64,000 nucleotides of DNA from Pelistega ratti (GTDB taxonomy: Bacteria; Pseudomonadota; Gammaproteobacteria; Burkholderiales; Burkholderiaceae_B), in contig NZ_CP047165.1 of assembly GCF_009833965.1 (NCBI RefSeq), forward strand, positions 1,240,001 to 1,304,000, read 5' to 3'. Positions within the stretch are counted from its first letter, which is position 1; the number at the start of each line of letters is the position of its first letter. A program made the translations under genes and the position numbers. The notes below the pieces were generated by a model. That model worked only from the letters and a program-made list of their open reading frames with translations, had not been told where the DNA came from and did not search any database. Positions 30,322 to 35,666 of the stretch are shown piece after piece.

Positions 30322-31161
30322 ATGAATATACACAAAAACACTCGCTTATTACCTCGCCAAAGAGAAGAGATTTGGCTAGCCTATACTCAAAACAAACAAA
30401 ATGTCACTTCTTTAGCGAAAGAATACAAGGTTTCTCGCCCCACTATCTATAAGATACTCAAACTCGCTCGTGGTCGATTATTAAAACCTCAGACCAGTAT
30501 CAATAATCGGTTTAGACAGGCTAAATTTGGGATTAAGCGCTTAGCTAAAGTAGAAAAGTCCATCCAAGAACGATTAAAGAAACAAGCTAAACGCTATAAT
30601 AAATCCTATCCTGGCGAAATGGTTCATGTCGATACAAAACGCTTGCCTTTACTGAAAGGACAACACACGCAAAGTCAAAGGGAATATCTGTTTGTGGCTA
30701 TCGATGATTACTCGCGTGAATTATATGCGGCTATTATGCCAGATAAAACCGCCTTTAGCGCAGCTACGTTCTTAACCCAACATCTGATAGACCCTTGTCC
30801 TTATACCATAGAGGTTATTTACTCAGATAATGGAACAGAATATAAAGGAACAAAAGAACATGAGTTTGGTAAAGCTTGTTATCAACATCATATCAATCAA
30901 AAATTTACTAAAGTCGCCAATCCTAAAACCAATGGAAAAGCAGAACGGGTAATTAGAACCTTGATGCAAATGTGGCATGATAAACATGAATTTACCGATA
31001 GCCAGCATAGAAAACAGGAGCTTACCCGATTTATTAATTTCTACAACACCGTAAAACCACATAGTGCTCTTGTTTACCAAGATCAACTTGGTCATAAACG
31101 GACACTGACACCTTACGAATATTTAGAAATTTATTTTGCAAATAGTGTAAACAACGCTTGA
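30322..31161 (+). CDS. IS481-family DDE transposase
   Basis: The 279-residue protein has an N-terminal helix-turn-helix (NVTSLAKEYKVSRPTIYKIL, residues 27-46) and an integrase-core RNase H fold. The DDE triad is Asp104 (MVHVDTKRL), Asp169 (YSDNGTEYKG) and Glu208 (KTNGKAERVIR), with IDDYSRELYA and FYNTVKPHSAL completing the IS481 pattern. One uninterrupted frame without a programmed frameshift, unlike IS3 elements. The Shine-Dalgarno sequence is weak. Confidence 0.93.
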   Translation: MNIHKNTRLLPRQREEIWLAYTQNKQNVTSLAKEYKVSRPTIYKILKLARGRLLKPQTSINNRFRQAKFGIKRLAKVEKSIQERLKKQAKRYNKSYPGEMVHVDTKRLPLLKGQHTQSQREYLFVAIDDYSRELYAAIMPDKTAFSAATFLTQHLIDPCPYTIEVIYSDNGTEYKGTKEHEFGKACYQHHINQKFTKVANPKTNGKAERVIRTLMQMWHDKHEFTDSQHRKQELTRFINFYNTVKPHSALVYQDQLGHKRTLTPYEYLEIYFANSVNNA

Positions 31162-31593: not shown

Positions 31594-32430
31594 TTATATT
31601 TTTAAATTCTGCCAAATCGCTAAGGTTGCCTTAGACTGATTTAACGTATAGAAATGAATTCCTGGCACTCCATTATCAATAAGCTTCTGACAAAGCTGTG
31701 TTACGACATCTATACCAAAGGCTCGAATAGAGGCTTGATCATCACCAAACTCTGCTAATCGTAAGCGTATCCACCGTGGGATCTCTGCCCCACACATTTG
31801 TGAGAAACGACTTAGCTGTGAATAATTGGTAATCGGCATAATCCCTGCATAGACGGGAATAGTCACTCCTTTTGCCGTTAATCGATTCACAAATTCATCA
31901 TAAGCATCTGGATTATAGAAGTACTGTGTAATCGCACTATCTGCACCAGCATTTACCTTAGTGATAAAGTGATCTAAATCCTCACTGGGTGAAGTCGCTT
32001 GTGGATGCATTTCTGGATAAGCCGCTACTTTGATATTGAAATAATCACCATAGTGCTGACGAATAAATGCCACCAAATCACTCGCATGACGTAATTCAGA
32101 ACTGGCTAAACCCATACCTGAAGGTAGATCCCCTCTAAGCGCAACAAGTTGTGTGACACCAATCTGCTTAAATTGCTCTAAATACGCCAAAATTTGCTCT
32201 GGCGTATTTCCCACGCACGATAAATGAGGCACTGCTTCTAAACCACGGTTTTTAAGCATTCTCACCGTTTCTATTGTGCCTACCTGCGTTGAACCACCAG
32301 CTCCAAAAGTTACACTCATATAGCTAGGACGAATAACCTGCAATTCTTGAGTGGTTTTTTGAAGCCGTTCTGCCGCTGCTACATCACGAGGCGGGAAAAA
32401 CTCTACACTAAAAAAATTATCTCTTGCCAT
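31594..32430 (-). CDS. metF: Methylenetetrahydrofolate reductase
   Basis: A 278-residue FAD-dependent TIM barrel producing 5-methyl-THF for methionine synthesis. Motifs: SVEFFPPRD with the catalytic Glu at the N terminus, SVTFGAGGSTQVGT, LVALRGDLPSG, GADSAITQYFYN and IMPITNYSQL. Only 1 nt after ahcY, so the two share a transcript controlled by the SAH riboswitch upstream. Both act in the methyl cycle with metK. Confidence 0.96.
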   Translation of the reverse strand: MARDNFFSVEFFPPRDVAAAERLQKTTQELQVIRPSYMSVTFGAGGSTQVGTIETVRMLKNRGLEAVPHLSCVGNTPEQILAYLEQFKQIGVTQLVALRGDLPSGMGLASSELRHASDLVAFIRQHYGDYFNIKVAAYPEMHPQATSPSEDLDHFITKVNAGADSAITQYFYNPDAYDEFVNRLTAKGVTIPVYAGIMPITNYSQLSRFSQMCGAEIPRWIRLRLAEFGDDQASIRAFGIDVVTQLCQKLIDNGVPGIHFYTLNQSKATLAIWQNLKI

Positions 32431-32431
32431 T

Positions 32432-33829
32432 TTAGTAACGATAGTGTTCTGGTTTATAAGGCCCTTCTACAGGTACTCCGATATAATCCGCTTGTTTTTG
32501 CGTTAGGGTAGATAGCTGTACACCTAATTTTTTGAGATGTAAGCGTGCTACTTTTTCATCTAAATGTTTTGGTAAAATATATACCTTACCTGCTTCATAA
32601 TGCTCTCCACGAGTGAAAAGCTCAATTTGTGCAATCGTTTGATTAGTGAAAGAAGCCGACATCACAAAAGAAGGATGCCCAGTAGCACAACCCAAATTAA
32701 CCAAACGACCTTTTGCCAATAAGATAATACGTTTACCATCAGGGAAAATCACATGATCCACTTGAGGTTTAATTTCTTCCCACTGTAAATCCTCTAATGC
32801 AGATACTTCAATTTCATTATCAAAGTGTCCAATATTGCACACAATCGCTTCATTTTTCATTTTTTCCATATGTGCACGTGTAATAACATTGTAATTACCT
32901 GTCGCTGTTACAAAAATATCTGCCTTATCGGCGGCATCTTCCATCGTAACAACTTTAAATCCTTCCATAGAGGCTTGTAAGGCACAAATAGGATCAACCT
33001 CACATACCCATACTTGAGCACGTAAAGCAGCAAGTGCTTGAGCACAACCTTTACCCACATCACCAAAACCAACAACCACGGCAACTTTACCTGCAACCAT
33101 CACATCAGTCGCTCGTTTAATACCATCAACTAAAGATTCACGGCAACCGTATAAATTATCAAACTTAGACTTTGTGACAGAATCATTCACATTAATCGCC
33201 GGGATTTGTAGCTCACCTTTTTGAGCCATTTGGTATAAACGATGTACTCCTGTCGTTGTTTCTTCTGTTACCCCTTTAATTTGTGCTAAACGGGTAGAAT
33301 ACCATGTGGCATCTTGTGCTAACTTAGCTTTAATAGCAGCAAACAGTACACGCTCTTCTTCACTTTGTGGGTTATCTAGTACAGAAATATCTTTCTCTGC
33401 TTTTGCCCCCAAGTGTAATAAAGTTGTTGCATCACCACCGTCATCTAAGATCATATTGGCTTGTTCGCCCGGCCATTCAAAAATCTGATGAGTATATTGC
33501 CAATAATCTTCTAGACTTTCCCCTTTAACCGCAAAAACAGGAATACCACGAGCAGCAATCGCAGCGGCAGCATGGTCTTGCGTAGAGAAAATATTGCATG
33601 ATGCCCAACGCACTTCTGCCCCTAATGCCACTAGTGTTTCAATCAATACACCTGTTTGGATAGTCATATGTAAACTACCTGCAATACGAGCCCCTTTTAA
33701 TGGTTGTGAGGCAGCAAACTCTTCACGTGTTGCCATAAGACCTGGCATTTCTGTTTCAGCAATAGATAATTCTTTACGCCCCCAATCTGCTAAAGAAATA
33801 TCGGCAATTTTATAATCAACTGTACTCAT
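32432..33829 (-). CDS. ahcY: Adenosylhomocysteinase
   Basis: The 465-residue enzyme splits S-adenosylhomocysteine into homocysteine and adenosine, relieving inhibition of methyltransferases. Motifs: [68 protein letters not shown] and the NAD-binding [16 protein letters not shown] terminus KPEHYRY is the family signature. Preceded by a SAH riboswitch with a terminator expression platform, and followed directly by metF. Confidence 0.97.
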
Positions 33830-33926
33830 ATTTATCCTTTACATATAAATGATTAAACGTTTTCATTCTACCGTACTTACTCTCTATTTCTGTACAAATA
33901 GTCGGTATTCCACAAAACTTATACAA

Positions 33927-33975
33927 CAAAAAAGCACTCACCTTATACTGACTTTTTTGCAGATAAGATGAGCGC
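33927..33975 (-). terminator. Riboswitch-controlled terminator before ahcY
   Basis: On the minus strand GCGCTCATCTTAT (complement of 33963-33975) pairs with ATAAGGTGAGTGC (complement of 33934-33946) in a 13-bp stem with two G-U pairs, followed by TTTTTTG. Its 5' arm is also the conserved 3' strand of the SAH aptamer, so aptamer folding and termination exclude each other. Confidence 0.85.
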
Positions 33976-34039
33976 CGTTATATTGATAATCATCTGTTTG
34001 AGCCTAGCAGAAAAATCTGTTGCAACGCCCCTCAAACAG
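33967..34039 (-). promoter_or_regulatory. S-adenosylhomocysteine (SAH) riboswitch
   Basis: Read on the minus strand: P1 is CTGTTTGAG (34039-34031) with CTCAAACAG (34002-33994). The conserved GAGGGGCGTTGCAAC segment follows P1, then CTAGGCTC, and finally the separated AACGGCGCTCATC strand (33979-33967) that forms the pseudoknot. These match the SAH aptamer as I know it. It begins 15 nt after the metK stop codon and controls ahcY-metF. Because the 3' strand is shared with the terminator, SAH binding should turn expression on, as known for this class. Confidence 0.92.
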
Positions 34040-34054
34040 TGAAAAAAGAATAGG

Positions 34055-35221
34055 CTACAAACCAACTGCCGCTCTTAAAGTAGCCGCTTTATCAGTCGCC
34101 TCCCACGAGAATTCAGGTTCTGAACGACCAAAATGTCCGTATGCTGCTGATTTACTATAGATAGGACGTAATAAATCTAGCATCTGTACAATTCCTCTTG
34201 GACGTAAATCAAAATGCTCGCGTACAAGTTTTTCTAATTCAGTATCAGGAATAACACTTGTACCTTCTGTATAAACCGTAATATTAATAGGTTCAGCTAC
34301 ACCAATTGCATAACTCACTTGAATTTGACATTGGCGCGCTAAACCAGCAGCTACAATATTTTTAGCAACATAGCGTGCTGCATACGCTGCCGAACGATCT
34401 ACTTTTGAAGGGTCTTTACCTGAGAATGCACCACCCCCATGAGGGCAAGCACCACCATAGGTATCCACAATAATCTTACGACCTGTTAAACCACAATCCC
34501 CTTGAGGTCCCCCAATCACAAAAACACCCGTAGGATTTACAAAGAATTTTGTATTGGGTGTGATTAAACCCTCAGGGAAACTTGGTTTAATAATTTCTTC
34601 AATAACCGCTTCTCGAATATCCGCTTGCTTGATTTCTGGGTGATGTTGTGTAGAAAGCACCACGGTATCCACTTCTACAGGTTTACCATCTACATAACGG
34701 AAAGTAACTTGAGATTTGGCATCAGGACGTAACCATGATAGCGTACCATTTTTACGCAATTCACTTTGACGCTGTACTAAACGATGTGCATACCAAATTG
34801 GCGCTGGCATTAAGTCAGGTGTTTCATCGCAAGCATAACCAAACATCAGCCCCTGATCCCCTGCTCCTTGATTAAGAATTTCTTCTTGAGAACGATCAAC
34901 CCCTTGAGCAATATCAGGAGATTGTTTATCATAAGCGACCAACACCGCACAACCTTTATAGTCAATACCATAATCGGTATTATCATAACCAATACGTTTA
35001 ATGGTCTGACGGGCAATATCAATATAATCAATATTAGCGGTAGTGGTAATTTCTCCTGCCAATACCACTAAACCTGTATTACACAGTGTTTCTGCCGCAA
35101 CACGTCCATTGGGATCTTGTTCTAAAATGGCGTCTAAAATCGCATCAGAGATTTGATCTGCTACTTTGTCGGGATGCCCCTCCGAAACAGATTCTGACGT
35201 AAATAAGAAATCATTAGACAT
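34055..35221 (-). CDS. metK: S-adenosylmethionine synthetase
   Basis: The 388-residue enzyme makes SAM from ATP and methionine. The start used is the ATG at 35221 ([19 protein letters not shown]), with AAGGA 10 nt upstream; a 16-codon longer frame reads through the leader and is not credible. Motifs: [54 protein letters not shown] and [19 protein letters not shown]. The leader contains a SAM-II-like aptamer. It is divergent from lpxL. Confidence 0.97.
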
Positions 35222-35286
35222 AAAAAAAGCGTCCTTAAAATGAAAAAACGAAAAGAGAACGCGAAGCAACTTGGAAGAAAGTGCGA

Positions 35287-35341
35287 CGCTTTAGCGGTTT
35301 TTATGATTCGCCCCGCAAGTTGTCTGTTTAACTCAGCGAAT
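35287..35341 (-). promoter_or_regulatory. SAM-II-like riboswitch aptamer ahead of metK
   Basis: Read on the minus strand: P1 is ATTCGC (35341-35336) with GCGAAT (35311-35306). The loop begins GAGTTAA and ends CTTGCGG (35319-35313). After P1 come ATAAAA and CCGCTAAAG (35297-35289), which pairs back to CTTGCGG as the pseudoknot. The GA.TTAA, TTGC, ATAAA and GCTAAA order is the SAM-II pattern. Downstream, CAAGTTG (35273-35267) and ACGCTTT beside the Shine-Dalgarno (35232-35226) can compete with the pseudoknot strands; which state is off is not clear from sequence. Confidence 0.75.
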
Positions 35342-35666
35342 AATATTTGCATTTATCAAAAATACAGTCTGCCTATTGTACTCTAATTTAGATTCAACGT
35401 GGTTATTTCACTCTTTTTCTAAGATAATCATTACTCCCTATCCTCTTTATCATCATGATTGAATAGATAGTTATAGCCTATTTATCATAAACAACCCATA
35501 CCTGTCTTTAGTTTATTTTTATACTTTTTATACCGTAGATTTCTCTTGATATGCTGATATAACACCTTATTTATTAACCTTTTTCAGCACTTCAACAGGA
35601 TAACAAGGTATCCTATCCAATATTCTTTTAAAATAATAAAATTACGGATTCCTCCTTATCAAATAT
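35342..35666. other. Divergent promoter region of metK and lpxL
   Basis: AT-rich, no ORF. Promoters for both genes must lie here. No hexamer pair stands out enough to be called. Confidence 0.4.

Follow-up and report, generated by a model that had tools for sequence, protein, structure and literature searches.

How are ahcY and metF controlled behind metK in Pelistega ratti, and does the RNA between metK and ahcY act as a switch? The genome (2.33 Mb, one contig) carries these genes on the minus strand of the window, meaning here the whole 64,000-nucleotide stretch of DNA that was analysed, in the order metK (methionine adenosyltransferase, 34055–35221; TIGR01034, 601.7 bits), ahcY (adenosylhomocysteinase, 32432–33829; TIGR00936, 612.8 bits) and metF (methylenetetrahydrofolate reductase, 31594–32430; TIGR00676, 316.9 bits). 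An lpxL-like gene is divergent, and a 279-aa ORF near metF (30322–31161, plus strand) resembles an insertion-sequence transposase by eye. A sequence-only reading had placed an SAH riboswitch, with a terminator using one strand of its aptamer, at 33927–34039, and these coordinates stand.

The check proposed with that reading, a covariance-model scan with the Rfam SAH model, gave a significant match. RF01057 matched positions 33963–34039 (minus strand) with 60.0 bits against a gathering threshold of 37 (E 1.5e-8, Rfam 15), over model positions 1–78 of 78. This was the sole gathering-level Rfam 15 match within the whole window, and the genome holds one copy. The nine pairs of P1 join 34031–34039 to 33994–34002, and the conserved core segments GAGGGGCGTTGCAAC, CTAGGCTC and AACGGCGCTCA are all present, so the Rfam match and the sequence agree with the earlier description of ordered aptamer segments and a 9-bp P1. 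The P4 pseudoknot, which we take to be the binding pseudoknot of the SAH riboswitch, pairs GGGCG (34026–34030, minus strand) with CGCTC (33970–33974, minus strand; located from the Rfam match and the sequence) through five pairs including one G-U, and this duplex alone amounts to −5.3 kcal/mol. A 125-nt segment around the aptamer (33926–34050) had a fold z-score of −4.31, and none of 200 shuffles folded equally well. Score, P1/P2/P4 layout with the conserved core, and position upstream of the SAH-recycling genes ahcY and metF all correspond to RF01057, and nothing in the window copy places it outside the family. It is an SAH riboswitch of the known family and ordinary in kind. What sets the copy apart is its site between metK and ahcY and the intrinsic terminator on its P4 strand; 77 of the 92 expression platforms compared below lack a hairpin with a T-run as defined there. 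The aptamer begins 15 nt after the metK stop, which ends at 34055, a spacing that the sequence-only reading had given correctly.

The intrinsic terminator spans 33928–33975 (minus strand), with its 5' arm at 33963–33975, its 3' arm at 33934–33946 and T6 at 33928–33933. The hairpin has 13 pairs, amounts to −21.9 kcal/mol alone and is directly followed by T6, which bears out the 13-bp stem and six T said to reuse the GCGCTC strand. Its 5' arm includes all five bases of the P4 3' strand, and because the hairpin uses the aptamer's pseudoknot strand, the aptamer and the full terminator are mutually exclusive. When GCGCUC was held unpaired, the fold of 33922–34039 went from −39.9 to −22.2 kcal/mol, a loss of 17.7. 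A generic terminator scan of the window did not list the shared-strand hairpin, which its printed loop limits of 3–8 may explain. From the end of T6 to the ahcY ATG there are 98 nt.

RF01057 was found above its cut-off in 245 of 268 family genomes and in five of the seven genus members (the window's genome, G220, G221, G222 and G223). In the remaining two, G218 and G219, there was no RF01057 match, and none in the metK–ahcY stretch at E up to 1. These two genomes (loci L193 and L194) measure 1.6–1.7 Mb and have kept the metK leader element described below. The aptamers of the four other riboswitch-bearing genus loci (L142–L145) scored 53.4 to 59.6 bits. Between the metK stop and the aptamer lie 10–16 nt in four of the five riboswitch-bearing members (window 15, L142 16, L143 14, L145 10) and 176 nt in L144. 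By AhcY identity, the nearest among the 80 named records kept, a set from which records very close to the window may be omitted, were Pusillimonas sp. (87%), Achromobacter insolitus (85%) and an Alcaligenaceae bacterium (84%). The metK–ahcY order is widespread: metK ends less than 1 kb before ahcY in 16 of the 80 named loci and within 1.5 kb in a further three, contig ends cutting some of the 80. The SAH motif written as a regular expression matched 40 of 131 ahcY loci and was replaced by a model, R2, which has matches in 70 of the 80 named loci and in all 50 other loci, these being the window or loci fetched as riboswitch holders. In the passages of Leyn et al. 2014 (PMC4239095) that concern SAH riboswitches, ahcY and metF are core members of the regulons and metK is not controlled by these riboswitches. 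For three Alcaligenaceae genomes, Table 1 of that paper seems to give none of these riboswitches, in contrast to the family count obtained here.

We compared the platforms at 92 of 120 R2 matches, window included. The 28 dropped comprised seven whose downstream stretch was already counted and 21 lacking an accepted spelling of the shared strand (GCGCTC, GCGTTC, GCGCCC or GCGCTT), 15 of which read ACGCTC. A hairpin was counted when at least seven pairs formed on the shared strand, and a T-run when at least five T occurred in the next eight bases; controls were 20 rounds of shuffling of the downstream sequence, in which letters having equal neighbours were swapped. With close relatives counted separately, the shared-strand hairpin was present in 85 of 92 platforms, compared with a shuffled mean of 40.3 and maximum of 52. 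The hairpin followed by a T-run was found in 15 of 92 (shuffled mean 1.6, maximum 3), so a T-run does not invariably accompany the shared hairpin, contrary to the expectation tested. The 15 consist of the five riboswitch-bearing genus members (window and L142–L145), all of which keep the layout, together with L148–L151, L054, L055, L069, L071, L073 and L156, of which L069 and L156 are weak by eye. Some weak R2 matches (L010, L048, L051, L076 and L079) are apparently misplaced. Elsewhere the strand pairs with the ahcY start region AAGGAGGGCGTGATG (L034, L040, L081, L095 and others), or alternatively lies in a hairpin lacking a T-run. Sequence comparison thus indicates that use of the shared strand is general, and that the putative terminator is one of several platforms and a minority form. 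SAH platforms would accordingly exist in terminator and non-terminator forms that use the same aptamer strand.

Relatives such as L111, L089, L159 and L142 also have, in their SAH platforms, a second helix that joins the hairpin loop to sequence farther downstream. Among the 78 of 85 hairpins long enough to be scored, close relatives counted separately, this helix had at least six pairs in 39, compared with a shuffled mean of 13.7 and maximum of 22. Its base combinations vary (ACCCGT/ACGGGT, CCTGTA/TACAGG, ACCTGC/GCAGGT). We rejected it as an antiterminator, its partner being transcribed with or after the T-run.

SAH riboswitches raise expression at high SAH, and they bind SAH and reject SAM. 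For the window copy, the reading we favour, and hold to be probable, is SAH-gated antitermination on a transcription-terminating platform, based on the anatomy and on the same layout in the five riboswitch-bearing genus members. Polymerase arriving from metK would transcribe the aptamer 15 nt past the metK stop. At low SAH, GCGCTC would pair downstream, the 13-pair hairpin would close and transcription would halt at T6, where the metK mRNA would end as well. At high SAH, the bound aptamer would keep CGCTC in P4 and the hairpin base would stay open; polymerase would then continue into ahcY–metF, whose products would degrade SAH and supply methionine regeneration. Because P4 is weak compared with the hairpin, both SAH and the order of folding would have to play a part in switching. 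We infer SAH binding, termination and read-through from this arrangement. The sequence-only reading had proposed the same two states; anatomy and genus layout agree with it, and the part that has polymerase reading through from metK is likely, on the following grounds.

Promoter scans covered sigma-70 consensus sites, and a promoter that departs from this consensus may exist within metK. The window's coding strand gave no sigma-70-like site from 35021 to ahcY, a stretch that includes the interval between aptamer and ahcY, where a strong promoter had been named as evidence that the terminator is irrelevant. In L142–L145, the region scanned ahead of the aptamer comprised the gap and roughly the final 400 nt of metK, and site counts exceeded those of shuffles by at most one standard deviation. 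L143 has one 9-of-12 promoter-like site just before the aptamer, in a region with two sites (shuffled mean 1.4), and L142 has a 9-of-12 site in the interval from terminator to ahcY; both are within what shuffling yields. The corresponding stretches of L144 and L145 had none, and before the aptamer no coding-strand site was found in the window, L142, L144 or L145. The metK stop and the ahcY start lie 14 and 12 nt apart in G218 and G219, the two genus members with no riboswitch match. Since no consensus promoter was found from 35021 to ahcY and the two genes nearly abut in G218 and G219, transcription likely reads through from metK into ahcY.

These data bear on three other explanations. An own promoter inside the metK 3' end, from which the antiterminator would work without metK transcripts, seems rather unlikely to us: the scans were limited to sigma-70 consensus sites, L143 has its site just before the aptamer and the 176-nt gap of L144, which counts against read-through from metK, leaves room for a promoter, whereas the four other riboswitch-bearing members have no coding-strand site there, the L143 region barely departs from its shuffles, and metK and ahcY abut in two genus members. 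The 77 platforms that lack a hairpin with a T-run count against antitermination and would suit a hairpin that acts on translation or decay of the ahcY mRNA instead of on transcription, as would the several platforms that pair the strand with the ahcY start region and the enrichment of the second helix. We nevertheless consider action on the mRNA improbable for the window, in which T6 directly follows the hairpin 98 nt before the ahcY ATG, and the T-run is kept in the five riboswitch-bearing genus members. Least probable would be a constitutive metK terminator behind an aptamer that no longer switches. The terminator is indeed the far more stable structure when ligand is left out, but the aptamer retains its 60 bits in the window and its high scores in L142–L145, and ahcY would need a promoter behind T6, where the window has no consensus site.

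The SAH switch would lie within a transcript that may begin with a second sensor. In the metK leader, a SAM-II-like pseudoknot element lies at 35282–35342 (minus strand), where R1, a model built from 29 motif-picked rows (the window among them) and fitted to P1 only, scores 77.8 bits. The Rfam SAM_alpha model, RF00521, matched 35271–35349 (minus strand) with 21.1 bits against a cut-off of 36 (E 0.016 in a 501-base search). Because the window's score lies below the Rfam cut-off, we call the element SAM-II-like only and do not assign it to the family. At E 1, RF00521 matched one of six other genus stretches (L143, 22.2 bits), and its weak matches are unspecific, being present in seven of 14 control genomes at E up to 1; the claim for the metK element is therefore based on the comparison of relatives. 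An element of the same build precedes metK in the genus and in many relatives.

The first alignment held the 29 motif-picked rows, and the motif fixes 27 letters, so that 27 invariant columns and five of 14 pairs were fixed by construction; further pair types were no better than in shuffles (354 of 500 as high). Because this count was motif-biased, it was repeated on 76 R1 matches (74 distinct) taken without a motif filter, some of them not in front of metK, and this is the count that we rely on. Over the 14 pairs, 91.6% of cells pair; changes on both sides occur in 11 pairs, all three helices included. None of 500 shuffles reached any of the five covariation measures, and slid controls paired in at most 49.7%. 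Of the 74, 35 leave the outermost pair of P1 open. Across the 76 matches, the element has the H-type P1/P2 pseudoknot of SAM-II. The segments CTTGC and GCTAAA, which presumably line the SAM pocket, are both in the window and are fixed by the motif in the motif-picked rows; all 76 matches have GCTAAA and all but three have CTTGC, two of the exceptions being L193 and L194 (ATTGC). Folding of the whole metK leader with the pseudoknot left out gave a z-score of −0.81, and 34 of 200 shuffles were as good. A literature search of titles and abstract openings found no metK leader RNA in beta-proteobacteria.

Downstream of the element, the metK Shine-Dalgarno region AAGGACGC (35229–35236, minus strand) stands 7 nt before the ATG, and AGGACGC occurs just before the metK ATG in all seven genus members (window, L142–L145, L193 and L194). 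A complementary GCGTTC lies upstream, shortened to GCGTC in G218 and G219. In the window it occupies 35257–35262 (minus strand), is complementary to 35229–35234 with one G-U, and is proposed as a possible anti-Shine-Dalgarno strand of metK. From this complementarity we propose that a SAM-bound pseudoknot would free the GCGTTC strand and so close the metK ribosome site. Several relatives within the family (L084, L152) have not kept the metK platform motif.

The SAM-II-like RNA is below the Rfam 15 cut-off in the window, yet R1 matches 240 of the 268 family genomes (E up to 0.1; best E 1.0e-14 to 3.6e-7), nearly always in single copy. All seven genus members have a match (49.3 bits in G218 and G219). 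Among the 28 family genomes with no R1 match are reduced ones (g22) and the listed members of genus g26; the latter have the SAH riboswitch all the same. At E up to 0.01, R1 matched 133 of 250 in the order sample and 30 of 274 in the class sample, partly other SAM-II-like elements. Among 22 named loci that include the metK start and 400 nt upstream, 12 have an R1 match, that of L072 being weak. Fetched loci had metK behind the R1 element in ten of ten cases for the family, 16 of 20 for the order and five of 20 for the class, the window's own locus being counted in both the family and order sets.

The element resembles SAM-II (RF00521) in the order of its two-helix pseudoknot and in its CTTGC and GCTAAA segments. 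It differs in its sub-threshold RF00521 score and in that R1 is weak on SAM_alpha loci (13.6–18.2 bits in 16 of 30); the window's metK leader also has GAGTTA at the place of GATTTG in metX copies, and an insert precedes the last strand in many relatives. Both models match L072, the metK leader of a record that bears the label gammaproteobacterium (RF00521 37.5 bits, above its cut-off; R1 25.5 bits), and L072 so links the R1 element to SAM_alpha. SAM_alpha itself exceeds its Rfam threshold in 186 of the 268 family genomes, and the ORF behind it in 30 fetched loci (L112–L141) is mostly MetX-like by eye, that of L136 having been tested as MetX. The relevant passages of PMC4239095 report SAM_alpha only from Rhizobiales and Rhodobacterales of the alpha-proteobacteria, and describe a metXZ element, a beta-proteobacterial pseudoknot of methionine genes before metX or metZ; those passages mention no beta-proteobacterial metK leader element. 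The metXZ element is probably SAM-II, as judged from the metX leaders scoring here as SAM_alpha.

In other genomes of the order, R1 also matched tandem SAM-II-like elements upstream of MATE-family transporters (L225 787–1008, L226 793–954, L228 1819–2192, L230 1663–1911 and L219 1501–1701), with MatE found in all five genes tested. No Rfam match over cut-off was found at these five loci. Behind the first copy, L225 and L226 have a hairpin with a T-run, and a small ORF may lie ahead of the MATE gene (by eye). Tandem SAM-II riboswitches are known, with 44 examples given in the part of PMC9481103 that treats them, and Table 3 there places SAH among the classes not found in tandem. The operon described here would be like such tandems in having two sensors of SAM metabolism on one transcript; those tandems share one leader and the same ligand, whereas here metK separates the two putative sensors.

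Tentatively, and with some doubt, we suggest that the operon is a two-input device in which a SAM-II-like off-switch in the metK leader is combined with an SAH on-switch for ahcY–metF. At high SAM, the leader element would shut metK translation, and the product SAM and by-product SAH would act on successive genes of one transcript. Given the size of a ribosome footprint, a ribosome terminating on metK would extend roughly as far as the edge of P1, so that metK translation may affect folding of the aptamer. The pairing could matter, as the SAM-II-like RNA heads the probable transcript and the ahcY part lies behind the SAH switch. If the leader senses SAM, one operon would carry both a SAM off-switch and an SAH on-switch, a compact and testable case of a single operon reading both SAM and SAH.
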